From positions 1 through 30,768 of IMG/VR virus record IMGVR_UViG_3300036770_001272: 30,768 nt of DNA; one strand, given 5' to 3'. Every line of letters begins with the position of its first letter. Within the stretch, counting starts at the first letter, position 1. Below the pieces are notes generated by a model. That model saw only the letters and a list, made by a program, of their open reading frames with translations, was not told where the DNA came from and searched no databases. A program made the position numbers and the translations under genes. Shown here piece after piece: positions 9,573 through 25,104 of this stretch. Origin of the DNA: a virus.

Positions 9573-10120
9573 TGGCAAATACAATCAATAATTTAACCAC
9601 CTCTAATACCTTCTTACAATGGTTGACTGGTACACAATCAGTCATTTCGTCTTTGAATTCTCTGAGAGAAGGTGGCGTATCTAACACTTATGTTGTAAAC
9701 ACTAGCATTGAAATTGCAGGTGATTTACTTGTAACTGGTAATCTTACACTTGATTCAATCGGCTTCAATGACTTAAATGTTGCTGGCAATACTGTAATCA
9801 ATGGCACTCTGACTGTTGGTGGAAACACATCGCTCGATAATGCCTATGTGACATATGGTAACTTTGAAACATCCAATGTCACAATCATGGTCGGTGATGC
9901 GAATACCGCCGTCTATGCAAACATTACGGCAGTATCAGGATTTGCTTCTGCGGCAGGTTCATATGCCAACTCTGCATTCATTCATGCTAATTCAGCATAT
10001 GAATCACAAAATACAACTGGTGTTTATGCGAATTCTTCATTCATTCATGCAAATAGTGCTTTTAATGCGGCGAATACCGCTGCATCTGATTCATTAGCGT
10101 TCGCTATCGCACTAGGATAA
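9572..10120 (+). CDS. Tail fibre protein with ANSAF repeats
   Basis: 182 residues. The middle shows the fibre beta-repeat 'IAGDLLVTGNLTLDSI...AGNTVINGTLTVGGNTS', a pattern common in phage tail-fibre shafts. From about residue 130 it has helical repeats of the form YANSAFIHANSAYESQN and YANSSFIHANSAFNAANTAA, shared with the fibres at 22185, 24150 and 24832. It ends in 'AFAIALG', nearly the same ending as the 89-residue protein at 24832. It is probably a fibre or fibre-base segment attached near the baseplate. A TATAAATA box follows directly after its stop. Confidence 0.75.
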   Translation: MANTINNLTTSNTFLQWLTGTQSVISSLNSLREGGVSNTYVVNTSIEIAGDLLVTGNLTLDSIGFNDLNVAGNTVINGTLTVGGNTSLDNAYVTYGNFETSNVTIMVGDANTAVYANITAVSGFASAAGSYANSAFIHANSAYESQNTTGVYANSSFIHANSAFNAANTAASDSLAFAIALG

Positions 10121-10150: not shown

Positions 10151-10477
10151 ATGGCCAATACCTTTAAATCGAATGTTGCAGTCAACATTGAAACGACAGG
10201 AAATACTGTCTATACATGCCCAGCTGCAACACAAACTACACTTATTGGTTTGACGATTGCAAATAAATCGAATGGTACCGTAACTGCGAATGCTTATCTT
10301 CGTAGGTCTTCGGTAGATTATGCGATTATTGCGAATGCACCAATTCTGAATGGTTCGACTCTTGTTCCAATTGGGGGTGACCAGAAAGTTGTTTTGCAAG
10401 ATGCTGACGAATTGAAAGTTACTGTTTCTTCGAATAATGCAGTCGATGTCATTGCAAGTTTATTGGAGATTTCTTAA
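10151..10477 (+). CDS. Small beta-rich structural protein, divergent A-type
   Basis: 108 residues, predicted all-beta, with no helices or membrane segments. It is built like the A-type proteins at 11294, 15438, 19695 and 20048: a 'N.....TVYTCPAATQTTLIG' start matches their 'TNVYxVPAATEAVISTI', a 'LTIANKS' strand matches 'ITICNQ', and it ends in 'LLEIS' as they end in 'FGSEIS'. It is the most divergent member. It has a good AAGGAAAA site and a TATAAATA promoter upstream, and the next gene follows after 3 bases. Such proteins are common unnamed structural or fibre-associated proteins in marine T4-like phages. Role unknown. Confidence 0.7.
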   Translation: MANTFKSNVAVNIETTGNTVYTCPAATQTTLIGLTIANKSNGTVTANAYLRRSSVDYAIIANAPILNGSTLVPIGGDQKVVLQDADELKVTVSSNNAVDVIASLLEIS

Positions 10478-10480: not shown

Positions 10481-11287
10481 ATGGCATACCTTGGTTTAGT
10501 CGCACCAATTTACGACCCAACAAGAGCACCAGTACCTCAGTTAGATGCTGAGCGTTTTAATGGTAATAATGTTACCGTTGCATTCACTCTTACACGGCAA
10601 GTAAACTCACCAACAGACATTGATGTAATTGTTGAAAATGTTCGTCAAGAACCAACTACTGCATACAATATTGAAGGTTACACTTTAACATTTACAGAAG
10701 CCCCACCATCTGGCACAAATAATATCTATGTCATTTATCGTGGTGGTGCAACAAATTCTTACGCATATGTACCAGATGGTTCGATTACATATGCAAAATT
10801 GGCACAAAACATTCGCCAATTTACAGTAGATACATATACAGCAAACGGTTCAGGTCAGACATTTGTTCTTACTGAAACACCTGCATCTGCAAACACTCTT
10901 GTAGTTTCGATTGATGGTGTTGTTCAAATTGCACCAGACAACTATAGTGTTTCTGGTACAACTTTAATCTTTACTTCTGCACCATCCAACGGTTCAAATG
11001 TTGCTGTCAAACATCTTGGTTTTAGAACGACCGCAACAGTTACAGAAGTTCCTGCTGATTCTATTACAACAAATGAATTAGCAGATAATGCTGTAACTAC
11101 TCCAAAAATTGCTGACGATGCTGTTACTGCTGCAAAACTTGCTGATACTGCTGTTACACCAGGAACATATGGTGGCGAAGAACAGATTCCAGTTGTTGTA
11201 GTTGACCAACAAGGTCGTCTAACATCTGCTGCAAATGTTTCAGTTTCAGCACCTTTACCAAATATTTTAATGTTATCAGGAATGTAA
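10481..11287 (+). CDS. Tail fibre protein with tandem beta modules (cassette 1, L gene)
   Basis: 268 residues. Two tandem ~90-residue beta modules share the pattern FxGxxxxxxFxL...PxDIDVxVxxVxQxPxxxYxIxGxTLxFTEAPPSGTNxIxVxYxG (about residues 25-90 and 115-185). This is the bead-on-string module of T7-like fibres and many environmental phages. Residues 190-235 carry the repeated 'ADSITTNELADNAVTTPKIADDAVTAAKLAD' linker (given here as its repeat unit ADxAVTxxKLAD). The last part, 'DQQGRLTSAANVSVS', is the fibre D-xx-GR motif, and it ends in 'NILMLSGM'. The 59-residue protein at 15258 ends in 'NPFLLSGM', and both are followed by an A-type gene. It is likely a fibre shaft or connector. Confidence 0.75.
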   Translation: MAYLGLVAPIYDPTRAPVPQLDAERFNGNNVTVAFTLTRQVNSPTDIDVIVENVRQEPTTAYNIEGYTLTFTEAPPSGTNNIYVIYRGGATNSYAYVPDGSITYAKLAQNIRQFTVDTYTANGSGQTFVLTETPASANTLVVSIDGVVQIAPDNYSVSGTTLIFTSAPSNGSNVAVKHLGFRTTATVTEVPADSITTNELADNAVTTPKIADDAVTAAKLADTAVTPGTYGGEEQIPVVVVDQQGRLTSAANVSVSAPLPNILMLSGM

Positions 11288-11293
11288 ACAAAA

Positions 11294-11632
11294 ATGGCAC
11301 AAACATATAAACGACTAGGCGCAATTAACCCATCTGCTAATACGCAGACCAATGTGTATGTTGTGCCGGCTGCGACAGAAGCAGTTATCTCTACAATTAC
11401 AATTTGCAACCAGGCAGCAACAAACGCATCGTATAGTTTAATCGTAATGCCGGCAAGTACCTTTGCTTCTCCTGCGGGTGCTGCACACTTTGTAATACGA
11501 GGTGCAACTGTTCCTGCAGCAGACACAATTATTCTTACTGTTGGTTTGACTGCAAATGCTGGTACAGTCATTGCAGCTAATACCAATTCTCCTAATGTTT
11601 CATTTAGTGCATTTGGTTCGGAGATTTCTTAA
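11294..11632 (+). CDS. A-type small beta protein (cassette 1)
   Basis: 112 residues. Conserved blocks shared with the copies at 15438, 19695 and 20048 are 'YKRLGAINPSANTQTNVYVV', 'PAATEAVISTITICNQAA', 'NASYSLIV', 'RGATVPAADTIILTVGLTAN' and the ending 'FSAFGSEIS'. Predicted beta sandwich, no signal or membrane segment. Its TAA shares one base with the ATG of the glycine-rich adhesin (TAATG), so the two are likely translated in a fixed ratio. It is related to a very common family of unnamed proteins of marine T4-like phages. A role as base or partner of the adhesin is inferred from this fixed neighbourhood. Confidence 0.75.
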   Translation: MAQTYKRLGAINPSANTQTNVYVVPAATEAVISTITICNQAATNASYSLIVMPASTFASPAGAAHFVIRGATVPAADTIILTVGLTANAGTVIAANTNSPNVSFSAFGSEIS

Positions 11633-12657
11633 TGACTATTCGTAGAGCAACCGGTTTAACTGGTGGTCAATTTACAGGTGAAAGTGTAAGACCACAAGGA
11701 TATCAATTTCCTGTTGGATTATCAAGTATAACTGCAAATGTTGTTCCTAATACAACATTTTCTCCATCGCCAGCTGTTACTGTATCTGGGGATGGAACAA
11801 ACACTTCGTATACATTTACAAGCTCTGGAACATTAACAGCTGGATTTACTGGTGAAGTTGAAGTTTTAGTTGTTGCTGGAGGAGGTTCTGCTGGCAAAAG
11901 CCAATGTAACTCTTGGTCTGGCGGTGGTGGTGGTGGTGGGTTAGTTTATCATTCTGCATATTCAGTTGCAAATGGAACATCATATACCGCCACAATAGGA
12001 AGTGGAGGAATAAATCCAGGAAGTGTTGGTAGAGGCTCGGATGGAAATCCAAGTTCTATTGCTGGGCCAGGTTCTCCTACGATTACAGCTCTTGCTGGAG
12101 GCGCCGGTGCAGGATTTAATAGCGGACCAACACCAAACCCAGGAGCTATTGGTAGTCCTGGAGGTTCAGGTGGTGGTGGAACCGCAGGATGGGGATTCAC
12201 ATCACCAGGAAGTAGTTCAACCCAATCTCCTTCTGGTGGCGGAACTGGATATGGTTTTGGTGGTGGGGGAATTGATAATGGTGGTTCCCCACACTATGGC
12301 GGCGCTGGAGGCGGAGGTGCTGGAAGTGCTGGCGATGACGCTAGTGGATCCTCAGCTTACGGAGGTGCTGGAGGTTTAGGATTGACCTATTCTATTTCTG
12401 GTTCTGCCGTTGGATATGCCGGGGGTGGTGGTGGAGGAGGTACAAATATGAATCCCCCAAATGGAAATCCAATTAATAGAGGCGTTCCTTTTGGTGCCGG
12501 TCAGTCAAATCCACCTGGCACTGCTGACAATGCAACTGCTAACCGTGGCGGCGGAGGTGCCGGCGCAATCTGCAACAACAATGGTAGCAATGGAGGTTCT
12601 GGTGTAGTCATTATAAAAACAGTTAATATAGCTTTTATTGGATATCGAGTAAACTAA
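11632..12657 (+). CDS. Glycine-rich adhesin-like tail fibre protein (cassette 1, B gene)
   Basis: 341 residues. Order: a short N-terminal anchor with 'RPQGYQFPVGLSS' (residues ~20-32), a beta strand 'VEVLVVAGGGSAG' typical of the Gly_rich_2-type domain, then about 240 residues of poly-glycine blocks (GGGGGGGLVY, PGAIGSPGGSGGGG, GGGGAGSAG). A conserved 'YSISGSAVGYAGGGGGGG' motif lies near residue 252, and the C-terminus is 'GSGVVIIKTVN...YRVN'. Glycine-rich blocks separated by variable loops are how the T-even distal adhesin gp38 displays its receptor-binding loops, so a receptor-binding tip is likely. This is analogy, as no gp38 sequence match is claimed. Paralogues are at 15767 and 20377. 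The stop is separated by one base from the next ATG. Confidence 0.78.
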   Translation: MTIRRATGLTGGQFTGESVRPQGYQFPVGLSSITANVVPNTTFSPSPAVTVSGDGTNTSYTFTSSGTLTAGFTGEVEVLVVAGGGSAGKSQCNSWSGGGGGGGLVYHSAYSVANGTSYTATIGSGGINPGSVGRGSDGNPSSIAGPGSPTITALAGGAGAGFNSGPTPNPGAIGSPGGSGGGGTAGWGFTSPGSSSTQSPSGGGTGYGFGGGGIDNGGSPHYGGAGGGGAGSAGDDASGSSAYGGAGGLGLTYSISGSAVGYAGGGGGGGTNMNPPNGNPINRGVPFGAGQSNPPGTADNATANRGGGGAGAICNNNGSNGGSGVVIIKTVNIAFIGYRVN

Positions 12658-12658
12658 T

Positions 12659-12979
12659 ATGACAAACTGGGCAAAAATAAATGAAAATAATATCGTCACA
12701 CATGTAATTGTAGCTGACGAAGATTTTATTAATTCTGGTGCTGTTGGCAGTTCAACTGATTGGGTGGAATGTATCAATAATGTTTCATCGATTGGATGGT
12801 CATATACAGAACAAGAACAAAAATTTTATCCTCCAAAAGAATATGATAGTTGGATTTGGAATGAAGAATATACCAGATGGGAACCTCCTATTCCTTATCC
12901 AGACCCAAATTTAGAATTAGGTAACGGCGCATATTCTTGGAATGAAGAAGATGGTAATTGGGAAAGAATGGTAGATTGA
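12659..12979 (+). CDS. C-type Trp-rich acidic small protein (cassette 1)
   Basis: 106 residues. Shared blocks with the copies at 16740 and 21194 are the start 'WAKINENNIVTHVIVADEDF', a 'FYPPKEYDSWIWNEEYTRWE' block and a 'YSWNEEDGNWE' ending. It is acidic and rich in Trp and Tyr. This family (start AxINENNxV, later FIPPKPFxSWxLNE, end WNExTxSWxxP) is widespread in marine T4-like phages without an agreed function. It always follows the glycine-rich B gene here by one base, which suggests a dedicated partner such as a chaperone, cap or attachment protein of the adhesin. That is inference. Confidence 0.75.
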   Translation: MTNWAKINENNIVTHVIVADEDFINSGAVGSSTDWVECINNVSSIGWSYTEQEQKFYPPKEYDSWIWNEEYTRWEPPIPYPDPNLELGNGAYSWNEEDGNWERMVD

Positions 12980-13149
12980 GAATATTTGCAACTGAAGAAA
13001 AAAGAGAACAACGAATAGAAATTTGCAAACCATGTGAACACAGAAAAACTCCTAGTGAAGAAAAACTAGGTAAATGCAATCTGTGTCATTGTTTTATAAT
13101 TGCAAAAACAAAATTAGAAATGGCCAAATGTCCTATTGACAAATGGTAG
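12976..13149 (+). CDS. Cys-rich zinc-ribbon-like mini-protein
   Basis: With the TTG at 12976 as start it has 57 residues. That TTG overlaps the TGA of the previous gene (TTGA), a typical coupled junction, with a GGGAAAG ribosome site about 10 bases upstream. The TTG at 12958 would add six residues. Cysteines at 17, 20, 34, 37, 39 and 52 form 'CKPC', 'CNLCHC' and 'KCPIDKW', that is CxxC-13-CxCxC-like-12-CPxxKW. This fits a small zinc-binding fold common in unnamed phage mini-proteins, whose CP..KW ending is recurrent. No catalytic residues are seen. Its role among fibre genes is unknown. Zinc binding is inferred from the cysteine spacing. Confidence 0.65.
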   Translation: MRIFATEEKREQRIEICKPCEHRKTPSEEKLGKCNLCHCFIIAKTKLEMAKCPIDKW

Positions 13150-13151
13150 AC

Positions 13152-13160
13152 GAATAAATA
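13152..13160 (+). promoter_or_regulatory. Late-promoter-like motif GAATAAATA
   Basis: GAATAAATA lies in a 47-base gap between genes, which gives room for a start near 13166 and a ribosome site AAGGAA at 13184-13189 before the ATG at 13197. The spacing is right for a real promoter, although the box differs from TATAAATA in its first bases. Confidence 0.45.
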
Positions 13161-13196
13161 CAATATCATCATTACTTGATTGAAAGGAAATAAAAA

Positions 13197-13595
13197 ATGG
13201 ATGTAAAAGAAGTCGCTAAAAATTTTACTGGTCAATCTGGAATGCCTTATGGAATTGATACTGCAATTAAGGCACTCAGACCAGGTGCAAAGTTTCAGAT
13301 GCAAGCAGGAAATGGAGAGTTTTCGTTTCCTCAATGGTGGGATCCAAATGGTTTGCCAGCTCCTTCCAAAGATGAGATTATGAAAGAGTTTGAGTTTCAG
13401 AAGGCAACCGCAGAATATTATCAGTATGCGTATGACAGATGTGCAAATTATCCTGATGGATTTGAGCAACTAGATATGTTATGGCATGCTGTAAAGAATG
13501 GTGTAGATTTAAAAGATTCAGAATGGTTTAAGGCGATTGATGAAGTAAAAGAAAAGTTTCCTAAACCTGAAGGACAACCTCCAGTTAAAGAGTAA
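13197..13595 (+). CDS. Small acidic protein, putative fibre assembly partner (D-type)
   Basis: 132 residues. It shares the layout of the D-type proteins at 14243 and 19192: 'DTAIKALRPGAKFQMQAGNG' (others: SLRPGAEWSLRGDNLEW), a Pro-x-x-x-E-I turn 'APSKDEIMKEFEFQ' (others: QPTDAEITAEIARL), a long helix ending in 'YDRCANYPDGFEQLDMLWHA' (others: ...EYPSLQEQLDMQYW) and the ending 'IDEVKEKFPKPE' (others: IKTKYPKPE). It is acidic and mostly helical. The arrangement recalls XkdW and tail-fibre-assembly proteins, which sit next to the fibre they fold. It has its own ribosome site (AAGGAA) and a promoter-like box upstream. The tip gene at 13599 follows after 3 bases. Confidence 0.7.
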   Translation: MDVKEVAKNFTGQSGMPYGIDTAIKALRPGAKFQMQAGNGEFSFPQWWDPNGLPAPSKDEIMKEFEFQKATAEYYQYAYDRCANYPDGFEQLDMLWHAVKNGVDLKDSEWFKAIDEVKEKFPKPEGQPPVKE

Positions 13596-13598
13596 TAG

Positions 13599-14246
13599 AT
13601 GGCAATTCAAAGAATAACTTCCGGTATTATCGCAGACGGTGCAATTGTAGCAACCGATATTGCTGATGGTATTGTAACAAATGATAAGTTAGCAGGTTCA
13701 ATTACCTCTGACAAAATTACATCGGTAAGTAATACAGCAATCTCAGGTTTAATACAGGCAGCACAAATTGGTTCTGCAAATGCTTCAGTAATCAATGCAG
13801 GAACATTGGCTAAAGCAAGATTGCCAACCGGTAGTGTTTTGCAGGTAGTTTACGCACAAGCAAACACAACAGTCTCAACAACATCTACTTCATATGTAGA
13901 CACGGGATTTTCTGCGTCAATTACACCAACTTCTGCAACTAGTAAAATTTTAATATTTGGAAGCGCAATTATTCGTGTTGGTACTGGAAGCAATAATTAT
14001 CAACACACAATTTTTAGAAACGGTACGACCGATTTAGCGCCATCTGCCACTCGTGGATTTATACAATGCCGTGATGCTAGTAACAACCAATCGGATTATA
14101 CCCCAGCATTTGCACACTTAGATTCTCCAGCAACAACTAGCGCAATAACTTATAACTGGTATCACAAAAGTGAGGGCGGTGTGTCGGTTTCGTTTTCGAT
14201 TGATAACTCCTTCGCACAACTTACTCTAATGGAAATTGCGGCATGA
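13599..14246 (+). CDS. Tail fibre tip protein, beta-repeat stalk plus knob (E1)
   Basis: 215 residues. Residues 1-45 are the fibre linker repeat (ADGAIVATDIADGIVTNDKLAGSITSDKI, unit ADGxIVxxDI). Residues 45-82, 'ISGLIQAAQIGSANASVINA' and 'GTLAKARLP', form the neck. Residues 80-215 are a beta knob beginning 'VLQVVYAQANTTVSTTSTSY' and containing 'DTGFSASITPTSATSKILI', a motif set found in many environmental phage fibre tips. It ends 'LTLMEIAA'. The neck is nearly identical, even in DNA, to that of the protein at 18464, while the knobs differ. It probably binds a host receptor. Its stop overlaps the start of the D-type gene at 14243 (ATGA). Confidence 0.78.
   Translation: MAIQRITSGIIADGAIVATDIADGIVTNDKLAGSITSDKITSVSNTAISGLIQAAQIGSANASVINAGTLAKARLPTGSVLQVVYAQANTTVSTTSTSYVDTGFSASITPTSATSKILIFGSAIIRVGTGSNNYQHTIFRNGTTDLAPSATRGFIQCRDASNNQSDYTPAFAHLDSPATTSAITYNWYHKSEGGVSVSFSIDNSFAQLTLMEIAA
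13746..13811 (+). repeat. Direct repeat copy 1 (fibre neck region)
   Basis: These 66 bases match 18695-18760 with two mismatches (13760 and 13793), both at third codon positions. They encode the neck of the fibre tip genes at 13599 and 18464. The identity ends where the receptor-binding knob begins. This is the pattern expected from recent duplication or a homologous recombination arm. Confidence 0.9.
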
Positions 14247-14551
14247 TTAATCAGATAACAAAAGCAGACGCTCTTATTTCCCTGCGCCCTGGTGCTGAGT
14301 GGTCTTTGCGTGGTGATAACCTCGAATGGTTAGACCAAAATCAGACGCAACCAACTGATGCTGAAATTACCGCAGAAATTGCTCGCCTAGAAGCAGAATA
14401 CGAAGCCAAATCTTATGCTCGTTCCCGTGCCGCTGAGTATCCATCACTACAAGAGCAACTCGATATGCAATACTGGGATGCCATCAATGGTACAACAAAC
14501 TGGGCAGATGCAATTGCAGCAATCAAAACTAAGTATCCTAAACCAGAATAA
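14243..14551 (+). CDS. Small acidic XkdW-like protein, putative fibre assembly partner (D-type)
   Basis: 102 residues. It has 'ISLRPGAEWSLRGDNLEWLD', then 'QTQPTDAEITAEIARLEAEY' (a Pro-capped helix), 'YPSLQEQLDMQYWDAINGTT' and the ending 'IAAIKTKYPKPE'. It is 4-base-overlapped with the tip gene E1 (ATGA), as the close paralogue at 19192 is with tip gene E3. The family is common beside phage fibres. The W.........PT.AEI pattern recalls tail-fibre-assembly and XkdW proteins. I infer a chaperone or cap role for the tip upstream. No enzymatic motif is seen. Confidence 0.72.
   Translation: MINQITKADALISLRPGAEWSLRGDNLEWLDQNQTQPTDAEITAEIARLEAEYEAKSYARSRAAEYPSLQEQLDMQYWDAINGTTNWADAIAAIKTKYPKPE
14342..14410 (+). 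repeat. Direct repeat copy 1 (D-type gene)
   Basis: These 69 bases match 19282-19350 with six mismatches. They include an uninterrupted identical stretch at 14348-14379 (to 19288-19319) and another at 14391-14410 (to 19331-19350). The offset (4940) is almost the same as that of the fibre-neck repeat (4949), so one E-D segment was probably copied as a unit. Confidence 0.9.
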
Positions 14552-14554
14552 ATA
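14548..14554 (+). promoter_or_regulatory. Late-promoter-like motif ATAAATA before an HNH gene
   Basis: GAATAAATA straddles the TAA stop of the D-type gene. The HNH gene starts at 14560, only 5 bases on, so a message from here would have almost no leader. Possibly chance, but the same sequence recurs at 13152 and 18431. Confidence 0.25.
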
Positions 14555-14559
14555 AACTA

Positions 14560-15261
14560 ATGAATTTACAAGAAGCATTAGAACAACATAAACCATTTTT
14601 AAATAATAAGTATACAAAATGGTACTTGTCTATTGTTTCAAAAGAATGTGATGATAGTTATGTTGAGAGACATCATATTTTACCTAGATGTTTATTTCCA
14701 CAATATGCAAAAAGTGAATGGAATATTGTTAAATTGAGTGCAAGAAAACATTATATTGTTCATGTTTTACTTTATAGAATGTTTGAAAAGAATACCAAAC
14801 AATATGGTAAAATGTTAACAGCCTCACTTAGAATGAAAACACACTCAACGAATAATCGATATGTTAATTCTAGGTTATATGAAATAACAAAAATTAAATT
14901 TTCAAATTATTTAAGAGAAACATTAAGGTGGTCAGAAGAACACAAGACTAGAATATCAAAAAAATTAAAAGGTATTGTTCGTGGACCAATGAGTGAAGAA
15001 ACCAAATTAAAAATGATTGCTACAAAAAAATCAAAAAATTTAGAAAAATCAACATTTATGGTTAAAGATGGTATTCAAAAAAGAGTATTCTTAACCGATG
15101 TGGAAGAATATAAAAAACAAGGTTGGATTCGTGGCACTAAAATGATAAAAACAGAAGAATATAAACAAAAATTAAGTAATGCTACAAAAAAACAATGGCA
15201 AAAAATGAGAGATAATGGTCATTTTGGTAATTTAAAAACTTTAACTGGGACTCAATCGTGA
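14560..15261 (+). CDS. HNH homing endonuclease (copy 1)
   Basis: 233 residues. The N-terminal 'NKYTKWYLSIV' and HNH core 'YVERHHILPRCLF' (His38-His39) with 'KLSARKHYIVHVLL' fit an HNH nuclease of the free-standing homing type. The middle has NUMOD3-like DNA-binding repeats ('SEEHKTRISKKLKG', 'SEETKLKMI', 'TEEYKQKLSNATKKQW'), and there is a 'VFLTDVEEYKKQGWIRGTK' module. It is paralogous to the gene at 25105. It is visibly richer in A/T and in AAA, TTA and AAT codons than its neighbours, a sign of separate origin. It sits exactly between two complete genes. Its TGA overlaps the GTG start of the next gene (GTGA). Confidence 0.88.
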   Translation: MNLQEALEQHKPFLNNKYTKWYLSIVSKECDDSYVERHHILPRCLFPQYAKSEWNIVKLSARKHYIVHVLLYRMFEKNTKQYGKMLTASLRMKTHSTNNRYVNSRLYEITKIKFSNYLRETLRWSEEHKTRISKKLKGIVRGPMSEETKLKMIATKKSKNLEKSTFMVKDGIQKRVFLTDVEEYKKQGWIRGTKMIKTEEYKQKLSNATKKQWQKMRDNGHFGNLKTLTGTQS

Positions 15262-15437
15262 GCTTAACCAAGGTAACACCAGCTTTAATCCAAGTTGCAA
15301 ACAATGTAACTTCTACTACACTTGGCAATTCAACGACAAGTATCTCACTCACATTTGATGAGAGTGGTGTTATTATTGCCGCATCTAACAATACAATCGA
15401 AACAGGTTTTAATCCTTTCTTACTATCAGGAATGTAA
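15258..15437 (+). CDS. Short fibre linker protein, GTG start (cassette 2, L gene)
   Basis: 59 residues, starting MSLTKVTPALIQVANNVTST. It starts with GTG overlapping the HNH stop (GTGA), with a GGGA site 7 bases upstream, and ends in 'NPFLLSGM'. The ending and the 'TFDESGVIIAASN' segment match the end of the L gene at 10481 ('VDQQGRLTSAAN...NILMLSGM'). The codon pattern and perfect packing between the HNH gene and the A-type gene at 15438 support a real gene. It could be a naturally short linker, as at 19492, or the remnant of a longer L gene whose 5' part was lost when the HNH gene arrived. Confidence 0.7.
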   Translation: MSLTKVTPALIQVANNVTSTTLGNSTTSISLTFDESGVIIAASNNTIETGFNPFLLSGM

Positions 15438-15767
15438 ATGGCAACCACATATAAAATTCTAGGTCAGGCCGCACCTACTGCAAATACATTGACAGATGTT
15501 TATACTGTGCCATCTGCAACACAAGCGGTCATTTCAACAATCACTATTTGCAATCAGACGGCAGTAAATGCATCATACTCAATCGCAGTTGCCGCAAATG
15601 GTACCGCAGATGCAAATACACAGTATATTGCCAGAGGTGCTACTGTACCTGCTGCCGATTCAATTTCTTTAACTCTTGGTATTACACTTGATGCATCTGA
15701 TGTTGTTCGTGCAAATACCAATCAATCAAATGTTTCTTTTAACATCTTTGGTTCCGAGATTACTTAA
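15438..15767 (+). CDS. A-type small beta protein (cassette 2)
   Basis: 109 residues. It has the full set of A-type blocks: 'TYKILGQAAPTANTLTDVYT', 'VPSATQAVISTITICNQTAV', 'ARGATVPAADSISLTLGITL' and the ending 'FNIFGSEIT'. It is closest to the copy at 11294. The ATG directly follows the L gene stop, and its TAA shares a base with the ATG of the glycine-rich gene at 15767, repeating the junction of cassette 1. Structural role inferred. Precise function unknown. Confidence 0.75.
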   Translation: MATTYKILGQAAPTANTLTDVYTVPSATQAVISTITICNQTAVNASYSIAVAANGTADANTQYIARGATVPAADSISLTLGITLDASDVVRANTNQSNVSFNIFGSEIT

Positions 15768-16738
15768 TGTCAGTTAAAAAGTTTAACACACAAGCAACTT
15801 TCAATCAGCAAAATTTTAGACCTAGAGGATTTCAATATCCTGTTGGGTTGAGTGGTGTTTTTGCTAATGCAGCTTCATCAATTTTATCCTCATCTCCAAG
15901 TGTTTCAATTAAAGTTTCTGGAAATGATGTAATTTTTAATTTTTCTAATTCTTCAACTCTTACATCTAGTGTTACAGCTGCAAATGTTGAAATACTAGCG
16001 GTTGGCGGTGGTGGAAGTGGAGGCAATGGCTCTGGTGGAGGTGGTGCTGGTGGTTTATTGTATGCTTATGGTTATCCTTTCACAGAAAACACAGTTTATA
16101 CGATAACAATTGGTGCGGGTGCTTCAACTTCAGGTACTTCCGCTAGTAATAGAGGTGCAAACACAACGGTTTCAGGCGGTTCAATTAGTATATCTGCTCA
16201 TGGCGGCGGCGCAGGTGTTCAATCAGGAATAAGTGGCGGTATTCAAAATGGTGGTTCTGGCGGTGGCGGAGCTTGGAGAAATGCTGCACCTGGTGTTGGA
16301 ACAGGAATTCCAGGACAAGGTAATAATGGCGGAAACAACGGCGGTTCTTATCCAGGCGGCGGAGGCGGCGGCGGTGGTGCAGGTGCTGTTGGAAGCAATG
16401 GTCAAAGTGGTGGTACTGCTGGTGCTGGCGGAGTTGGTTTAGCATATTCGATTTCAGGTTCATCAGTTTATTACGCAGGTGGCGGCGGTGGAGGCCACGA
16501 CTTTACTTCTCCAATATCAACCGTTGTACCAAATGCTCCTGGCGGTAATGGTGGAGGTGGAAACGGAACTGGTGGTAACGATACTGGGACAAATAATCCA
16601 GGAACCGCAGGAACTTCAAACCGTGGTGGAGGCGGAGGCGGCGGAGGTTCTAACTTTGGTGCCGGCTATTCTGGAGGTTCTGGTGTTGTAATTATTAAGG
16701 TACAAGATGGCATTTACTCGGAGTATTCTATAAATTAA
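15767..16738 (+). CDS. Glycine-rich adhesin-like tail fibre protein (cassette 2, B gene)
   Basis: 323 residues. The anchor 'FRPRGFQYPVGLSG' lies near residue 20 and the strand 'VEILAVGGGGSGG' near residue 75. Long glycine blocks follow, then the conserved 'YSISGSSVYYAGGGGGG' motif, and the end 'GSGVVIIKVQDGIYSEYSIN'. The two ends match the copies at 11632 and 20377, but the loops between glycine blocks differ in length and residues, as expected for receptor-binding loops under change. It is probably a distal adhesin. One base separates its stop from the C-type gene. Confidence 0.78.
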   Translation: MSVKKFNTQATFNQQNFRPRGFQYPVGLSGVFANAASSILSSSPSVSIKVSGNDVIFNFSNSSTLTSSVTAANVEILAVGGGGSGGNGSGGGGAGGLLYAYGYPFTENTVYTITIGAGASTSGTSASNRGANTTVSGGSISISAHGGGAGVQSGISGGIQNGGSGGGGAWRNAAPGVGTGIPGQGNNGGNNGGSYPGGGGGGGGAGAVGSNGQSGGTAGAGGVGLAYSISGSSVYYAGGGGGGHDFTSPISTVVPNAPGGNGGGGNGTGGNDTGTNNPGTAGTSNRGGGGGGGGSNFGAGYSGGSGVVIIKVQDGIYSEYSIN

Positions 16739-16739
16739 T

Positions 16740-17084
16740 ATGGCACACTTTGCACAAATAAACGAAAACAATATTGTAGTTAATGTAATAAGAGCCACAC
16801 AAGAATTTATTAATACTGGCGCTGTTGGTAATCCTGAAAAATGGATTCAAACATCTTATAATACAGATTCAGGTACCCATTTATTGGGCGGCACTCCTTT
16901 GCGTAAAAATTATGCTGGTATTGGATATACCTACGATGTAGAAAGAGATGCTTTTATTCCACCAAAACCATTTGCATCTTGGACACTAAATGAAGAAAAA
17001 TGTATTTGGGAAGCACCAATAGAAAGACCTTCTTTTAAACATCAATGGAACGAAGAAACCCAATCTTGGGATGCACCAGAATAA
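16740..17084 (+). CDS. C-type Trp-rich acidic small protein (cassette 2)
   Basis: 114 residues. It is the most typical member of the family: 'FAQINENNIVVNVIRATQEF', then 'LRKNYAGIGYTYDVERDAF', 'IPPKPFASWTLNEEKCIWE' and the ending 'HQWNEETQSWDAPE'. The KNYAGIGYTYD block, missing from the copies at 12659 and 21194, is the part most often kept in marine T4-like phages. It follows the adhesin by one base. Function unknown. A partner of the adhesin is inferred from constant linkage. Confidence 0.75.
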   Translation: MAHFAQINENNIVVNVIRATQEFINTGAVGNPEKWIQTSYNTDSGTHLLGGTPLRKNYAGIGYTYDVERDAFIPPKPFASWTLNEEKCIWEAPIERPSFKHQWNEETQSWDAPE

Positions 17085-17088
17085 ACAC

Positions 17089-17095
17089 ATAAATA
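17089..17095 (+). promoter_or_regulatory. Late-promoter-like motif ATAAATA
   Basis: CATAAATAA lies in the 15-base gap before the ATG at 17100. The box is good but very close to the start codon, so any message would be leaderless. Weak call. Confidence 0.25.
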
Positions 17096-17099
17096 AACC

Positions 17100-17522
17100 A
17101 TGGCATACATAGGCAATTACCCAATCTCAGGTACCATTCGTTCCCAGTTTTTTTCTGGTGATGGTTCTACAACAACTTTTAATCTTACATACGAATATGG
17201 CAACGAAGCTTCTGTTCTCGTATTCATTTCTGGTGTTAAACAGAAAACAGATTCGTATGCAGTCATTAATGGTCAGTTAGTTTTTACTGCTCCACCACCA
17301 TCTGCAATTGACAACATTGAAATCATCTATCTTGGTGGTTCTGTTGTCACTACACCATATTTGAGTGCAGATACATATGGTGTGATTCGTATTAATGCAA
17401 ACGAAATCAAAGAAAATGTTACCATTACTACAGGTTATAATGGAAGTTCAGCAGGTCCTTTGACTGTTGCAAACGGATTTACAATAAGCATTGCTAACGG
17501 TTCCACATGGACAATTGTATAA
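17100..17522 (+). CDS. Small fibre protein with one bead-type beta module
   Basis: 140 residues. The start 'MAYIGNYPISGTIRSQFFSG', then 'FNLTYEY...SVLVFISGVKQ' and 'LVFTAPPPSAIDNIEIIYLG', form one copy of the same ~90-residue beta module that occurs twice in the L gene at 10481 ('LTFTEAPPSGTNNIYVIYRG'). The last 45 residues are a short beta segment ending in 'ANGSTWTIV'. It is probably a fibre shaft or adaptor. It precedes the C1q-like tip at 17532 by 9 bases. Confidence 0.72.
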   Translation: MAYIGNYPISGTIRSQFFSGDGSTTTFNLTYEYGNEASVLVFISGVKQKTDSYAVINGQLVFTAPPPSAIDNIEIIYLGGSVVTTPYLSADTYGVIRINANEIKENVTITTGYNGSSAGPLTVANGFTISIANGSTWTIV

Positions 17523-17531
17523 GAGAAAAGA

Positions 17532-18260
17532 ATGGCCGGTAAACTCATAGTCGATACACTACAAACTGAATCAACATTCTTACAGATGAATGTTGGTACT
17601 ACACGCATTGCTACAATGAATGCATCTGGTATTTACAGTAATACCGGCACAAAGATGATTGGTTCTGATGGTTCGATTGGTGCAACTACAGTCGATGGTT
17701 CTGCATTGGTAGACAATACTGTTACGGCTGCTAAAATTGTTTCTGTTGCCAATACACAAATCACTGGTAATATCACAAGTTCTCAGATTGCAGCAAATGC
17801 CGTAACACAAACTGCAATTGCTTCTGGTGTTGCGGGGACTGGTCCAGCGTTTCGTGCCTATAAAAGTGCAGGAGATGGAAACCAAACTGGTTATTCAACA
17901 ACCACATGGACAAAAGTAACTTTTGGTGCAGAAACTTTTGACACCGACAATTGTTTTGCATCATCAACATTTACTCCAAATGTGGCAGGTTATTACAGGT
18001 TTCAATCAACTCTAAATCAAGGAAGTGGTTCAACTACCCGTTGCATTATTGGTCTATACAAAAATGGTTCACTAGTGTCACGGCTTATAGATTTGTCAGT
18101 AACATTTGGTAGCAATAGTAATATTGGGGGTTCTGATATTTTTTATATGAACGGAACGACTGATTATGCTGAAATTTATATATTTCAGGCTGGAGCTACA
18201 GGAGTTTACTTTAGTGAAATTGAAACATACTTTAGTGGTGAACTTGTGAGGGCTGCATAA
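17532..18260 (+). CDS. Tail fibre tip protein with C1q-like head (E2)
   Basis: 242 residues. The N-terminal 'MAGKLIVDTLQTES' anchor is shared with the gene at 18464. Residues 50-100 are linker repeats (DNTVTAAKIVSVANTQITG, ITSSQIAANAVTQTAIASG). Residues ~105-242 look like a C1q/TNF-like jelly roll: 'PAFRAYKSAGDG', 'TTWTKVTFGAETFDTDNCF', 'STFTPNVAGYYRFQSTL', 'IIGLYKNGSLV' and an ending '...YFSGELVRAA'. C1q-like heads form trimers and serve as fibre tips or adhesins. The stop shares a base with the ATG of the XkdW-like gene at 18260. Confidence 0.83.
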   Translation: MAGKLIVDTLQTESTFLQMNVGTTRIATMNASGIYSNTGTKMIGSDGSIGATTVDGSALVDNTVTAAKIVSVANTQITGNITSSQIAANAVTQTAIASGVAGTGPAFRAYKSAGDGNQTGYSTTTWTKVTFGAETFDTDNCFASSTFTPNVAGYYRFQSTLNQGSGSTTRCIIGLYKNGSLVSRLIDLSVTFGSNSNIGGSDIFYMNGTTDYAEIYIFQAGATGVYFSEIETYFSGELVRAA

Positions 18261-18436
18261 TGACACTTTATGAAAAAATAATTGCACTTTATCCAGAACT
18301 TGATGAATATGACTTTGCTGGTAGTTCCATCATCTTACAAAACGATTCTGACGGACAAGGTGACTACATTGCCAAGTGGGAACATCCAACACTTTCAAGA
18401 CCAACGCAAGAACAATTAGACGCTATTACAGAATAA
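18260..18436 (+). CDS. XkdW-like mini-protein
   Basis: 58 residues: 'MTLYEKIIALYPELDEYDF', then 'SSIILQNDSDGQGDYIAKWE' and 'HPTLSRPTQEQLDAITE'. This follows the XkdW pattern of a Tyr-Pro turn, a D/G-rich strand with YIxxW, and a final RPTxEQL helix. It is one base-overlapped with the C1q-like tip gene (TAATG), just as the D-type genes overlap their own tips. It may be the partner of the C1q-like tip. The identification rests on reading the motif, not on a search. Confidence 0.72.
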   Translation: MTLYEKIIALYPELDEYDFAGSSIILQNDSDGQGDYIAKWEHPTLSRPTQEQLDAITE

Positions 18437-18439
18437 ATA
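18433..18439 (+). promoter_or_regulatory. Late-promoter-like motif ATAAATA
   Basis: GAATAAATAA overlaps the stop of the XkdW-like gene, 25 bases before the TTG start at 18464, with an AAAGAGAGAA purine stretch between. The spacing allows a short leader, so this is one of the more plausible of the weaker boxes. Confidence 0.38.
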
Positions 18440-18463
18440 AAGTATTAACAAAGAGAGAACAAA

Positions 18464-19195
18464 TTGGCTGGCATTTTAAAAGTTGATACCCTACAATCAG
18501 ACAGTAATCTTGCACTAAAGATTGCTACTGCTAATGTGGCATTTATTGATTCCAACGGACTGAATGTTGTTGGTGGTAATCTAACCATTGGTGCCACACA
18601 GTTTGCAGAAGGTGGTCAGATACAGACGGCAGGTATTGCTGATGATGCAGTTACAAGCGACAAGATTCTTTCTGTTGCAAATACAAAAATTTCTGGTTTA
18701 ATACAGGCTGCACAAATTGGTTCTGCAAATGCTTCAGTAATTAATGCAGGAACATTGGCTGGTGCTAGATTGCCGGCGAATAGTGTGTTGCAGGTGGTCA
18801 GCGTAAATCATTCAGCAGCAGACACAACTACATCAACAAGTTTTACTGATACTGGATTAGAGGCAAGCATTACCCCATCCGCAACATCATCAAAAATTTT
18901 AATTATTACAACTGTTCATATTGGCTCTGATGGTGGAGACGGAGAGCACTCTCTTTTACAATTGGTCGCTAATGGTTCTGGGTTAAGCGTATTTTATGGA
19001 GTAAGAGATATGCCGTCCTGGGCAACAGCTTCACAAACAAATTTTTCATATTTGCATTCGCCAAGTTCTACATCTCTGCAAACTTACAAAATTAGACATA
19101 GAACGACAAACGCTGCCAGTGAGAGCAGGTATAACTATTATTCTGCTTCATATGGAATTACTTCAAATATAATTCTTATGGAGATTGCAGGATGA
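18464..19195 (+). CDS. Tail fibre tip protein, beta-repeat stalk plus knob (E3), TTG start
   Basis: 243 residues from a TTG start. The encoded start 'MAGILKVDTLQSDS' matches 'MAGKLIVDTLQTES' of E2, which fixes the start in spite of the rare codon. Order: anchor (1-14), beta stalk (20-60), neck 'ISGLIQAAQIGSANASVINA' then 'GTLAGARLP' (77-104), and a knob from 'VLQVVSVNHSAADTTTSTSF' to 'IILMEIAG'. The neck is almost identical in DNA to that of E1 at 13599. The knobs are related but clearly diverged. It is probably receptor binding. It overlaps the D-type gene at 19192 by 4 bases (ATGA), the same junction as E1 with its D gene. Confidence 0.78.
   Translation: MAGILKVDTLQSDSNLALKIATANVAFIDSNGLNVVGGNLTIGATQFAEGGQIQTAGIADDAVTSDKILSVANTKISGLIQAAQIGSANASVINAGTLAGARLPANSVLQVVSVNHSAADTTTSTSFTDTGLEASITPSATSSKILIITTVHIGSDGGDGEHSLLQLVANGSGLSVFYGVRDMPSWATASQTNFSYLHSPSSTSLQTYKIRHRTTNAASESRYNYYSASYGITSNIILMEIAG
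18695..18760 (+). repeat. Direct repeat copy 2 (fibre neck region)
   Basis: This matches 13746-13811 with two mismatches over 66 bases. It lies at the same place in the paralogous tip gene, just before the divergent knob. Confidence 0.9.
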
Positions 19196-19488
19196 TTACC
19201 AAAGCAAATGCTATCAAATCAATTCGTCCAGGCGCCCAATGGTCGTTGCATGGTGATGACCTAGAGTGGCTCGACACCGAGCAGACCCAACCAACTGATG
19301 CTGAAATTACCGCAGAAATCGCCCGTCTTCAAGCAGAATACGAAGCCAAAGAGTATCAGAGACAAAGAGTAACAGAGTATCCTCCTATCGGTGACCAATT
19401 AGATGCATTATGGAAAGGCGGAGAAGCAGCCGAAGAAATGCTTGCAAAAGTGCAGGCAGTTAAAATTAAATATCCAAAACCAGAGTAA
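19192..19488 (+). CDS. Small acidic XkdW-like protein, putative fibre assembly partner (D-type)
   Basis: 98 residues, a close paralogue of the protein at 14243: 'KSIRPGAQWSLHGDDLEWLD', 'QTQPTDAEITAEIARLQAEY', 'EYPPIGDQLDALW' and the ending 'VKIKYPKPE'. The central helix is conserved even in DNA, while the region after 'QLDALW' differs ('KGGEAAEEMLAKVQA' in place of 'DAINGTTNWADAIAA'). The variable C-terminal part next to a variable knob would fit co-evolution of a tip and its helper. Overlaps the E3 gene by 4 bases. Function inferred. Confidence 0.72.
   Translation: MITKANAIKSIRPGAQWSLHGDDLEWLDTEQTQPTDAEITAEIARLQAEYEAKEYQRQRVTEYPPIGDQLDALWKGGEAAEEMLAKVQAVKIKYPKPE
19282..19350 (+). repeat. 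Direct repeat copy 2 (D-type gene)
   Basis: This matches 14342-14410 with six mismatches over 69 bases, at the corresponding place in the paralogous D-type gene. Confidence 0.9.
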
Positions 19489-19491
19489 AAC

Positions 19492-19695
19492 ATGGCCGGC
19501 ACAATCGTAATATCAACAATTCAATTAGATTCAGGCAATGATTTTACCATTGTTTCAAACACAGGTACTACGCTTGTGTCTGCAAATGCATCAGGTATCA
19601 ATGCAGCAGTTTCTATTGCTGACGGAACAATTACACAAGCAAAACTAGGTCCAGACATTAGCACCATCAACCCATTACTGTTTACGGGTTCATAA
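19492..19695 (+). CDS. Short fibre linker protein (cassette 3, L gene)
   Basis: 67 residues: 'MAGTIVISTIQLDSGNDF', a beta segment with 'ANASGINAAVS', the linker repeat 'IADGTITQAKLG' and the ending 'INPLLFTGS', similar to the endings 'NPFLLSGM' and 'NILMLSGM' of the other L genes. The N-terminus resembles the fibre anchors at 17532 and 18464 (MAGxLxVDTLQ). Its stop shares a base with the next ATG. It looks like a fibre reduced to anchor plus C-terminal docking peptide. Confidence 0.7.
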   Translation: MAGTIVISTIQLDSGNDFTIVSNTGTTLVSANASGINAAVSIADGTITQAKLGPDISTINPLLFTGS

Positions 19696-20048
19696 TGGCA
19701 AACTCATATAAAATATTAGGACAAATTGCACCTTCTCAGAATACACTCACCAATGTGTATGTGACTGGTGCATCAGCTTCATCTGTTGTCAATACAATCT
19801 ATCTCTGCAATCAAGACTCTGCAAATGCAAATGTCTCGGTTATTGTAAGACCAGTCAACGAAACATTGGCAAATAAACACTATATTTTGCAGGATCAAAA
19901 ATTAGATGCTGCAGATACAATCATACTCAATCTAAATATAACAATGAACTCAGATGTTATTTTAGCTGCAAACATTGCTACAAGAGCAGGTGAATCAAAA
20001 TCTACTGCAAACTGTTCTGTGAATGCCTTTGGTGTGGAGATTAGTTAA
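19695..20048 (+). CDS. A-type small beta protein (cassette 3, first copy)
   Basis: 117 residues. Blocks: 'SYKILGQIAPSQNTLTNVYV', 'TGASASSVVNTIYLCNQDSA', 'VIVRPVNETLANKHYILQ', 'AADTIILNLNITMNSDVILA' and the ending 'NAFGVEIS'. It is nearest to the adjacent gene at 20048, so these two arose by tandem duplication within cassette 3. It has a small insert 'RAGESKSTAN' before the ending. One-base overlaps at both ends. Structural or adhesin-partner role inferred. Confidence 0.75.
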   Translation: MANSYKILGQIAPSQNTLTNVYVTGASASSVVNTIYLCNQDSANANVSVIVRPVNETLANKHYILQDQKLDAADTIILNLNITMNSDVILAANIATRAGESKSTANCSVNAFGVEIS

Positions 20049-20377
20049 TGCCACAATCATACGAAATTCTTGGGCAAGTATCACCATCACCAAACACAGT
20101 TACAAATGTGTATGTGACAGGTGCATCTTCGTCTGCAATCGTTAGCACAATTACAATACATAATTTTTCAGATAGCAATTCAAGTTACTCTTTGTTAGTT
20201 CGACCAATCAATGAAGCAGAAGCAGCCAAACACTTCATCATACGAGGCGGTATTGTTCCGGCAAGAGAACTGATTACAATTACAGGTGCGGTTACAATGA
20301 ATTCTTCGGCAATTCTTGCTGCAAATACAAATGGTGCATCAATTTCATTTAACGCATATGGCGTGGAGATATCATAA
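20048..20377 (+). CDS. A-type small beta protein (cassette 3, second copy)
   Basis: 109 residues: 'SYEILGQVSPSPNTVTNVYV', 'TGASSSAIVSTITIHNFSDS', 'LLVRPINEAEAAKHFIIRGG', 'ITGAVTMNSSAILAANTNGA' and the ending 'NAYGVEIS'. It is a tandem paralogue of the preceding gene. It takes the position next to the adhesin gene, with the usual TAATG one-base overlap. Two A genes in one cassette could allow a hetero-oligomer or simply a spare copy. Confidence 0.75.
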   Translation: MPQSYEILGQVSPSPNTVTNVYVTGASSSAIVSTITIHNFSDSNSSYSLLVRPINEAEAAKHFIIRGGIVPARELITITGAVTMNSSAILAANTNGASISFNAYGVEIS

Positions 20378-21192
20378 TGGGCGTTAAGTTTCTCAATCAA
20401 AATATTACAGTAAACACTACAAGACCTACTGGTTATAAGTTTCCTGTTGGTTTGTCGGTAGCAGAGGCCGCTGTTACTGGTCAAACAGTAACCTTCAATT
20501 CAACTCCTGGGCCAGGTTCATATACTATTCCAAACAGAGTTAGCACCGTTGAGTTATTAGTTGTAGCTGCAGGTGGTGGTGGAGGTCAAAATCTTGCCGG
20601 CGGAGGCGGAGGCGCTGGAGTAAGTTACTCTAATTCTTTCCCTGTTACGCCAGGTAGTTCAGTAACCGTAACAGTTGGTGCTGGTGGATCTGGTGCGCAA
20701 GGATATGGGCCGGCACCTGGACCAGGATCACCATCATCTGTATCAGGAGGAACTTCAGTATTTTCTTCTGTTACTGTGAATGGCGGTGGCGCCGGAAGCA
20801 ATGGAGATGCTGGCGTAGGCGGTGCAGCAGGAGGAGCAAATAATACAACTGGAACAGGCGGAACGGGAGCTGCATCAGGACAAAATGGAACGGCTGGTGG
20901 CCCAGGTGTAACTTACTCAATATCCGGTTCGCCAGTAACTTATGGTGGTGGAGGTGGTGGTGGTGGTTCACCGCCAGGACCAGGTTATGGTCAAGGACAA
21001 CCAGGAGGTGCCGGAGGTGGAGGTAATGGAGCCAACGGCACTGGTGGTACTGTAACTGGTAATCCAGGAACATCAAATTTAGGTGGCGGCGGTGGTGGTG
21101 GTTGCTACCAAGGAGGTCCTGGAGGCAATGGTGGTCCAGGTGTTATTATTATGAAATATGATAATGTTCCAGCTAAATACTCAATAGATTAA
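20377..21192 (+). CDS. Glycine-rich adhesin-like tail fibre protein (cassette 3, B gene)
   Basis: 271 residues, the shortest of the three. The anchor 'TRPTGYKFPVGLSV' lies near residue 15 and the strand 'VELLVVAAGGGGG' near residue 63. Glycine blocks follow, then 'YSISGSPVTYGGGGGGGG' and the ending 'GPGVIIMKYDNVPAKYSID'. The three B proteins share head, mid motif and tail while the loops differ. Probably a distal adhesin or receptor-binding tip. The C-type gene follows after one base. Confidence 0.78.
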   Translation: MGVKFLNQNITVNTTRPTGYKFPVGLSVAEAAVTGQTVTFNSTPGPGSYTIPNRVSTVELLVVAAGGGGGQNLAGGGGGAGVSYSNSFPVTPGSSVTVTVGAGGSGAQGYGPAPGPGSPSSVSGGTSVFSSVTVNGGGAGSNGDAGVGGAAGGANNTTGTGGTGAASGQNGTAGGPGVTYSISGSPVTYGGGGGGGGSPPGPGYGQGQPGGAGGGGNGANGTGGTVTGNPGTSNLGGGGGGGCYQGGPGGNGGPGVIIMKYDNVPAKYSID

Positions 21193-21193
21193 A

Positions 21194-21508
21194 ATGAAAA
21201 ATTACGCAAAAATCAATTTAGAAAATACTGTTGTTGATATTTTAGTTTTTGAAGAAACTCCAGCTTTATCATTACCTGAAGGTTGGAAATTAATTGAATA
21301 TGTAAATGATGGTAGCATCCGTTCAAATCCTGCTGTAATTAATGGAAAATATGATAGTGTTAGAGATATTTTTATAAACATACAGGATTATCCTAGTTGG
21401 ACACTTAATGAGAATACTGGGCGTTGGGAACCACCAACACCATATCCAAACGATGGTAATTTTTATCAATGGAACGAAGAAACACAATCTTGGGACGCCC
21501 CACAATAA
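21194..21508 (+). CDS. C-type Trp-rich acidic small protein (cassette 3)
   Basis: 104 residues: 'NYAKINLENTVVDILVFEET', 'DIFINIQDYPSWTLNENTGR' and 'FYQWNEETQSWDAPQ'. The ending is nearly identical to that of the copy at 16740, while the centre is different and lacks KNYAGIGYTYD. It is the last gene before a hairpin terminator, so it closes the cassette zone. Confidence 0.75.
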   Translation: MKNYAKINLENTVVDILVFEETPALSLPEGWKLIEYVNDGSIRSNPAVINGKYDSVRDIFINIQDYPSWTLNENTGRWEPPTPYPNDGNFYQWNEETQSWDAPQ

Positions 21509-21511
21509 AAT

Positions 21512-21535
21512 AAACCCCGCATAGTCGGGGTTTTT
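21512..21535 (+). terminator. Rho-independent terminator
   Basis: AAACCCCG pairs with CGGGGTTT (8 base pairs) around the loop CATAGT, and a run of five T begins within the 3' arm. It lies 3 bases after the stop of the C-type gene at 21508 and before a promoter-like box. This is the only strong intrinsic terminator I could see in the window. Confidence 0.88.
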
Positions 21536-21563
21536 CAATTCTGCCGCACAACTCCTGTTTTGA

Positions 21564-21570
21564 CTAAATA
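21564..21570 (+). promoter_or_regulatory. Late-promoter-like motif CTAAATA
   Basis: ACTAAATAG lies between the terminator and the GTG start at 21594, with GGGAG (21583-21587) as a likely ribosome site. A terminator followed by such a box supports a new transcription unit starting here. The 85-base gap is the longest non-coding stretch in the window. Confidence 0.45.
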
Positions 21571-21593
21571 GACGATAAAAACGGGAGTTATTT

Positions 21594-21926
21594 GTGGCAG
21601 CCTATACAGAGATAAGTGTCGAACAATACGCAACTTTTTCTACGACAGTCAATGTAGAAGACAGTCAGGGAGGTGCGGTGAATCTTGCTGGTTATTCAGC
21701 CGCCTCTCAGATTCGTAAGTCTTATTATTCAACCTCTGCCAATAATTTTACTGCAACCATCACTGGTACTGCAAACGGTGAAATTACGCTGTCAATGACG
21801 GCAGCAAACACGGCAAATCTAACTCCTGGAAGATATTTGTATGACCTTGTGATTACGGCGCCAGAAGGCACGAAAACACGGGTCGTAGAAGGTATTGTGA
21901 ATGTATTAGCAGGTGTAACGCAGTAA
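21594..21926 (+). CDS. Ig-like structural protein, GTG start
   Basis: 110 residues from GTG, with GGGAG upstream. It begins 'MAAYTEISVEQYATFSTTVN', then 'DSQGGAVNLAGYSAASQIRK', 'GEITLSMTAANTANLTPGRY' and 'YDLVITAPEGTKTRVVEGIV'. The Q-G-ATF...V.D..G...L.GY...AQIRKS pattern is a beta-sandwich found in many phage baseplate or fibre-attachment proteins, widely kept in marine T4-like phages. It is likely a small virion protein at the baseplate-fibre interface. The exact place is not known. Confidence 0.75.
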   Translation: MAAYTEISVEQYATFSTTVNVEDSQGGAVNLAGYSAASQIRKSYYSTSANNFTATITGTANGEITLSMTAANTANLTPGRYLYDLVITAPEGTKTRVVEGIVNVLAGVTQ

Positions 21927-21927
21927 A

Positions 21928-22185
21928 ATGGCAATCAATGCAAGAATTAACACGACAGGCTCGATTGGTCGTGCGATTATTAAGTCATCACCAAAAACTG
22001 CGATTGCTGCGGATACATTTGCGCCAAAACCTAATGTAAGTATTAATGAAGTGCGTGGTATCTCAACCACAGGTGTAGAGAATGGATTCACTCTAGTTTT
22101 TAACTCGACAACAGATAATTTTGAGGCACAACCAGCATCTAATGTTGCAGTCAATATAACACAAATAACCGGGGGCACCTTCTAA
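21928..22185 (+). CDS. Small structural protein ending in GGTF
   Basis: 85 residues: 'MAINARINTTGSIGRAIIKS' then 'SINEVRGISTTGVENGFTLV', 'DNFEAQPASNVAVNITQI' and the ending 'TGGTF'. The fibre gene that follows also ends in GGTF. A 'V....NG..LVFN..T..FE..PA' stretch resembles the standard fibre motif that reads out a value. The start follows the previous stop by one base, and its own stop shares a base with the next ATG. Probably a fibre-attachment or collar protein. Function unknown. Confidence 0.7.
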   Translation: MAINARINTTGSIGRAIIKSSPKTAIAADTFAPKPNVSINEVRGISTTGVENGFTLVFNSTTDNFEAQPASNVAVNITQITGGTF

Positions 22186-23663: not shown

Positions 23664-23682
23664 ACAATGAAAAGGGGTCGTT

Positions 23683-25101: not shown

Positions 25102-25104
25102 AAA

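Follow-up and report, generated by a model that had tools for sequence, protein, structure and literature searches.

The Gly-rich tail fibre gp24 of the cyanophage Pam3 has its own chaperone, gp25 (PDB 7YPX; PMC9608196), and in the long tail fibres of S16 and PP01 a separate Gly-rich adhesin, gp38, is added at the end of the gp37 shaft (PMC9608196, PMC12892980). In the branched receptor-binding systems of K1-5, G7C and Klebsiella phages, different receptor-binding proteins share short conserved N-terminal peptides, by which they dock on a single T4gp10-like adapter (PMC6872550). In the marine Alteromonas phage V22/A5, a small chaperone gene comes after a fibre gene (PMC10579305), and the host recognition cluster of pelagimyophages and cyanomyophages occupies the hypervariable, fibre-bearing stretch that separates baseplate-region from neck genes in T4-like genomes (PMC7029224). 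Here, we describe the IMG/VR record IMGVR_UViG_3300036770_001272, a 30,768-base stretch of an uncultivated virus (hereafter, the window), in which four genes occur three times in the same order: a shaft or linker gene (L), a gene for a small beta protein (A), a gene for a Gly-rich adhesin (B) and a gene for a Trp-rich protein (C). We suggest that each such cassette probably encodes one multi-protein tail fibre, in which L would be the shaft, A the adaptor, B the exchangeable adhesin and C the chaperone. The gene order, the conserved ends of L and B, the shared DNA blocks and the folds of the A and C models are observed, and from them we infer the physical contacts, the chaperone activity of C and the binding of receptors.

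The cassette resembles the gp24/gp25 pair in having a Gly-rich tip protein and a small putative chaperone, and a chain of 7YPX was the best structural match of C. Pam3 differs from the cassette in that gp24 alone makes up the fibre, including an N-terminal helical shaft, and is accompanied by neither an A nor an L. The domain below the Gly-rich lattice is TNF-like in gp24 and a beta-helix in gp38. The S16/PP01 fibres share with the cassette a separate adhesin at the shaft end; however, gp38 sits directly on gp37, whereas here a small beta-sandwich gene intervenes and a dedicated small gene for the putative chaperone follows. The proposed docking of different tips on one adaptor by short conserved N-terminal peptides has its parallel in the branched systems, but A is a stand-alone protein of ~110 residues, the 50 best PDB fold matches shown for it include no entry of T4 gp10, and the cassette differs further in the C-terminal tails on the shaft and the C-terminal YxIN on the tip. 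The V22/A5 chaperone is a helical DUF4376 protein with beta-hairpin tentacles, whereas C lacks helices of this kind and does not match any Pfam family. The genomic place is that of the host recognition cluster, the fibre genes of which are not resolved into L-A-B-C units in the accessible part of the source. The cassette is thus set apart from known fibres by a stand-alone beta-sandwich adaptor, C-terminal shaft tails and a C-terminal YxIN on the tip. A search of the open-licence literature found no previous account of a fibre docking tail of this kind.

Baseplate wedge genes lie at the 5′ end of the window, and its 3′ end carries genes for a T4-like neck, sheath stabiliser and terminase; all cassette genes lie on the forward strand. 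Cassette 1 consists of L1 (10481-11287, C-terminal tail ILMLSGM), A1 (11294-11632, phrog_1276, also assigned by the family profile), B1 (11632-12657) and C1 (12659-12979, phrog_7759). Cassette 2 includes the short linker L2 (15258-15437, tail FLLSGM), A2 (15438-15767), B2 (15767-16738) and C2 (16740-17084). Cassette 3 begins with the short linker L3 (19492-19695), the tail of which, LLFTGS, is of the type found ahead of A doublets; the doublet A3 (19695-20048) and A3′ (20048-20377), B3 (20377-21192) and C3 (21194-21508) follow. All coordinates agree with those given in a preliminary description of this DNA made from the sequence, including the second A of cassette 3, and the LSGM- or FTGS-like peptides reported there at the ends of L are present in all three copies. 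That description overlooked a further A-like gene, A0 (10151-10477, forward strand, phrog_1276/26609), which aligns with A and sits between L1 and a gene (9572-10120) for a protein with a C-terminal IALG tail; the order A0-L-A also occurs in relatives. The copies are diverged, as had been claimed: protein identity to the first copy is 46-61% for A (37% for A0), 44-48% for B and 36-44% for C.

To collect relatives without selecting for partners, A alone was used to fetch 63 non-redundant viral loci and C alone to fetch 54. These two queries were used because degenerate patterns for B gave three loci only, Gly-rich patterns flooding the scan. Genes were called by our own greedy script, Gly content served to define B, and related loci are not fully independent. 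Against within-locus shuffles, A-B adjacency was observed 51 times (mean 16.1) and B-C adjacency 56 times in the loci fetched by C (mean 10.6), and the full order A-B-C was found 17 times versus 1.2 in the loci fetched by A and 6 times versus 0.3 in those fetched by C. The reverse orders, B-A and C-B, showed no enrichment over the same shuffles. A Gly-rich B directly preceded C in 56/67 cases in the loci fetched by C, in 33/41 in those fetched by A and in 8/8 in held-out loci. The gene after A was B in 52 cases, another A in 20 and another protein in 35. The complete L-A-B-C set is present in the cultured Pontimonas phage phiPsal1, in the record of which B is not annotated as one gene. A scan of bacterial and archaeal genomes returned two actinobacterial metagenome-assembled genome contigs only, both carrying A-B-C. 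The co-occurrence of A, B and C in this order, which the preliminary description had proposed to check among relatives, was therefore borne out, the shuffles being far exceeded, and gene order is strong evidence of linkage.

Alternatively, A, B and C might form no unit, and their order might simply result from fibre genes generally being clustered where the genome is hypervariable. The region is indeed fibre-rich and hypervariable in related phages (PMC7029224), and A and C are each found without the others. We nevertheless consider this explanation improbable, since the shuffles, which preserve the content of each locus, fall far below the observed A-B, B-C and A-B-C counts, the reverse orders are not enriched, and the L tail, A and the B anchor share DNA blocks. 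The identical gene junctions emphasized previously carry less weight. They do exist in the window, with a one-base A-B overlap (TAATG) at 11632, 15767 and 20377 and a one-base B-C gap at 12658, 16739 and 21193. However, an offset of -1 is also more frequent than any other where unrelated genes of these loci meet, and the B-C offset of the relatives, most often -1, varies widely, so we have downgraded this argument for linkage.

In phiPsal1 (L001:5346-6242), the B position between A and C is occupied by a 299-residue Gly-rich reading frame, where the record annotates small hypothetical genes.

At the C-terminus of proteins encoded directly before A stands a short hydrophobic tail containing Gly, usually as the penultimate residue (68/79 versus 29/1135 of other genes), with a consensus of roughly [PI][NHS][PI]FLL[MS]G[AMS]. 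The type of tail follows the arrangement of A: FT..G tails precede A doublets in 10/11 cases, and all 48 of the remaining hydrophobic-Gly tails stand before a single A. In held-out loci, the tail was retained by the A subfamily of the window in 11/13 cases (a hand count from the listing) versus 5/657 elsewhere; the total given by the script, 12/46, counts other A subfamilies as well. Those subfamilies have other upstream tails, KAYFFGAM-like and ERFTWFKSSG-like in the held-out loci, and A0 follows IALG-like tails. In five loci (L017, L022, L023, L024 and L026), the L and A genes are fused, with A at the C-terminus of L.

Instead of being a protein plug, the conserved end of L might serve A as a ribosome-binding and coupling sequence or provide homology for recombination. 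Gly codons of the tail are rich in GGA (46/73 versus 24% overall) and give Shine-Dalgarno-like AGGA/GGAG beside the A start, and the DNA blocks shared with the relative L011 start at the tail. On the other hand, the tail is kept where L and A are 12-80 nucleotides apart (8/9 versus 3/165 in the control), so it is not only a ribosome site, and closely spaced control genes have it in just 25/792 cases. The same peptide is also written in different DNA: FLLMGA occurs in 12 loci in 10 different DNA sequences. Retention at long gaps together with variable synonymous sites indicates that selection acts on the peptide, and the L-A fusions put a covalent link in place of the junction. For these reasons, we give little credence to the tail being solely such a nucleotide signal. 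A purely Shine-Dalgarno origin, tried as a candidate, was judged to be at most partial. Judging from the GGA-rich Gly codons, part of the DNA pattern may serve the translation of A.

The IALG tail found elsewhere ahead of A0 also ends an 89-residue protein (24832-25101), the gene of which is followed by an endonuclease gene and not by an A0. The adjacent proteins at 21928-22185 and 22185-23663 end in ITGGTF and LQGGTF, as they do in L012; these GGTF ends are possibly another class of C-terminal tail. In loci L174-L253, the tails upstream of P-SSM2-type relatives of A are aromatic and of a separate kind (EFFVGQI, KAYFFGAM), and the protein after such an A is mostly not a B.

A2 was modelled with high confidence as an eight-stranded beta-sandwich. 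Matches of the A model in the PDB indicate a jelly-roll-like fold class and no more. Among predicted viral structures, it matched mainly uncharacterised proteins of phages, and some of the matches are named virion structural or tail fiber-like. The "virion structural protein" names are annotations not traced to spectra, and the presence of A in virions is not established by them. No Pfam or NCBIfam family and no consistent Pfam match was found for A, its PHROGs are of unknown function, and PDB sequence searches with A, B and C returned nothing significant. The P-SSM2-type and MANIYKNAQ-type relatives of A are mostly without B and C, which means that the A family is broader than the cassette.

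Domain PF21722 was found above the cut-off in B1, B2 and B3, the richest 100 residues of which contain 45-48% Gly. B1, B2 and B3 carry the anchors VRPQGYQFPVGL, FRPRGFQYPVGL and TRPTGYKFPVGL and end in YRVN, YSIN and YSID, respectively. In T4-like relatives, the N-terminal anchor RPxGYxFPxG, scored as RPx[GN][YF]x[YFW]P, was present in 26/63 Bs placed after A and in 15/32 placed after another B, compared with 0/75 after any other gene; it occurs in B1-B3 and in tandem Bs, at the second and third positions as well. A C-terminal YxIN ([FYL]x[ILVF][ND], e.g., YSIN) was found in 38/43 anchored Bs versus 0/215 other Gly-rich proteins. Between B3 and its relative in L011, the anchor is 92% shared and the body 45%. 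From these comparisons, B reads as a protein with fixed ends and a variable body. Where tandem Bs are followed by C, C is placed after the last B.

Genes for 2-oxoglutarate (2OG)-Fe(II) oxygenases immediately follow B or C, or separate the two, in L012 (8186-8812), L009 (11084-11701), L037, L130, L151, L155, L167 and L169, and a C homologue of cyanophage S-SSM5 likewise has such neighbours. These enzymes perhaps hydroxylate the tips.

C has no Pfam or NCBIfam family, and its PHROGs are of unknown function. The C2 model was confident (predicted local distance difference test, pLDDT, 94.5), and its best match among 350,542 PDB chains was 7ypx_a (prob 0.82, E 0.59, TM 0.41), a 162-residue chain, the length of gp25, from the entry holding the Pam3 gp24-gp25 fibre-chaperone complex. 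An entry of the Mu fibre chaperone (Tfa) stood at rank 6. Chaperones of the Tfa/gp25 type grip the fibre by an N-terminal beta-sandwich. Beside this weak E-value, the chaperone reading of C draws on the gene order, which already pointed to a chaperone of a Gly-rich fibre. Alternatively, C could be part of the virion, as a second receptor- or glycan-binding subunit. Trp-rich repeats in its C-terminal half could bind sugars, and some fibre chaperones remain on the fibre (PMC10579305). Nevertheless, we regard this as unlikely, given that the Pam3 chaperone heads the list of fold matches, which also contains Mu Tfa, and that a single C after two or three tandem Bs suits a helper better than a stoichiometric subunit.

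The earlier proposal of a base, tip and helper unit is supported. The helper fits C, which adjoins B and has Pam3 gp25 as its best structural match, and the tip fits B, with PF21722 in all three copies. The base fits A best in the sense of an adaptor, since A also stands before non-Gly-rich fibre proteins and some L proteins bear it as a C-terminal fusion.

Based on the above results, we propose the following assembly of the fibre. The gene order would mirror the stack, from the shaft L through the single or double adaptor A to the tip B. L would serve as the shaft or linker, its N-terminus probably setting the place of fibre attachment, and its last 6-9 residues (PFLLMGA, ILMLSGM or LLFTGS type) would form a C-terminal plug. 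This plug would be received by the small beta-sandwich A, FT..G plugs pairing with an A doublet and LSGM/LMGA plugs with a single A. B, the exchangeable adhesin, is predicted to dock on A by its N-terminal RPxGYxFPxG and C-terminal YxIN, the Gly-rich body between them binding the receptor. C presumably folds B and then leaves, in parallel with gp25 and the Gly-rich gp24 of Pam3.

A number of observations weigh against this model, in addition to the GGA-rich codons of the tail described above. The data had already been seen when the patterns for the tail, the anchor and YxIN were drawn up, and the held-out test applies to the tail alone. A precedes non-Gly-rich proteins in 35/108 cases, about a dozen of which are A0 before L. 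When the L2 tail was read through its stop into A2 and modelled, no confident position of the tail was obtained (block means pLDDT 47 and 64). The C-gp25 match is weak, its E-value being not significant alone, and C is without the C-terminal helical trimerisation domain of gp25: no helix follows residue 25, and the C-terminal half consists of short beta repeats. For lack of this domain, C was not classed as a Tfa member. Finally, C also occurs at a distance from tail genes in some cyanophages (S-SSM5).

Cassettes, and extra B genes within a cassette in relatives, may be gained or lost as units between the baseplate and neck genes. Two forward-strand DNA blocks are shared with L011: one comprises the L2 tail and A2 (15407-15754, 86%), and the other the L3 tail, A3, A3′ and the B3 anchor (19666-20445, 88%). 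The similarity begins ~30 nucleotides before the end of L and stops near the end of A or within the B anchor, which implies that tail and adaptor travel together as one DNA block. The near relative L012 shows 89% identity over 5270-10063 and 84% over 21485-24362, and between these same flanks it has one A-B-C set, whereas the window has three sets and other fibres; cassette number therefore changes between sister phages. This is a concrete case of a fibre repertoire growing by whole units. It is consistent, as are the tandem anchored tips of relatives, with the earlier idea of expansion to several receptors, of which the receptor diversity itself stays inferred.

As the record is a metagenomic fragment, we also considered whether the three copies arose by mis-assembly of co-occurring strains. 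This is very improbable: the copies have only ~36-61% protein identity, the independent contig L029 is 99.99% identical over 18985-26374, spanning cassette 3, and several cassettes are also present in relatives such as L011, L017 and L023. The preliminary description had likewise argued against a recent assembly artefact, and relatives carry other copy numbers.

Several cassettes with different L N-termini, combined with several tips per adaptor as in relatives, would widen the choice of receptors. A broader and more tentative idea, which we hold with rather less than even confidence, is that many unrelated tailed phages share a plug-and-socket code. The C-terminal tail of the shaft would be matched to the adjacent A subfamily, and alternative tips with the same anchor and YxIN would compete for one adaptor, so that a population or even a single virion would show mixed receptor specificities. 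If such an end-sequence code is real, the matching shaft, adaptor and tip could be read from sequence, the tips of each phage counted, and host-recognition parts found in uncultivated viruses. The adaptor and chaperone roles would, in turn, annotate A and C, genes seen in many aquatic viruses.

A second repeated fibre pair, located in the window at 13599-14551 and 18464-19488, consists of a fibre-like protein gene and then a gene for a phrog_9114-like small protein, with a 4-base overlap. The small protein resembles a fibre chaperone, and a third phrog_9114-like gene is present at 13197-13595. In addition, three free-standing endonuclease-like genes (14560-15261, 25105-25803 and 26752-27279) lie inside or adjoining the fibre and neck genes. 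Two of the three carry NUMOD3/HNH signatures, and the end of the first overlaps the GTG start of L2.

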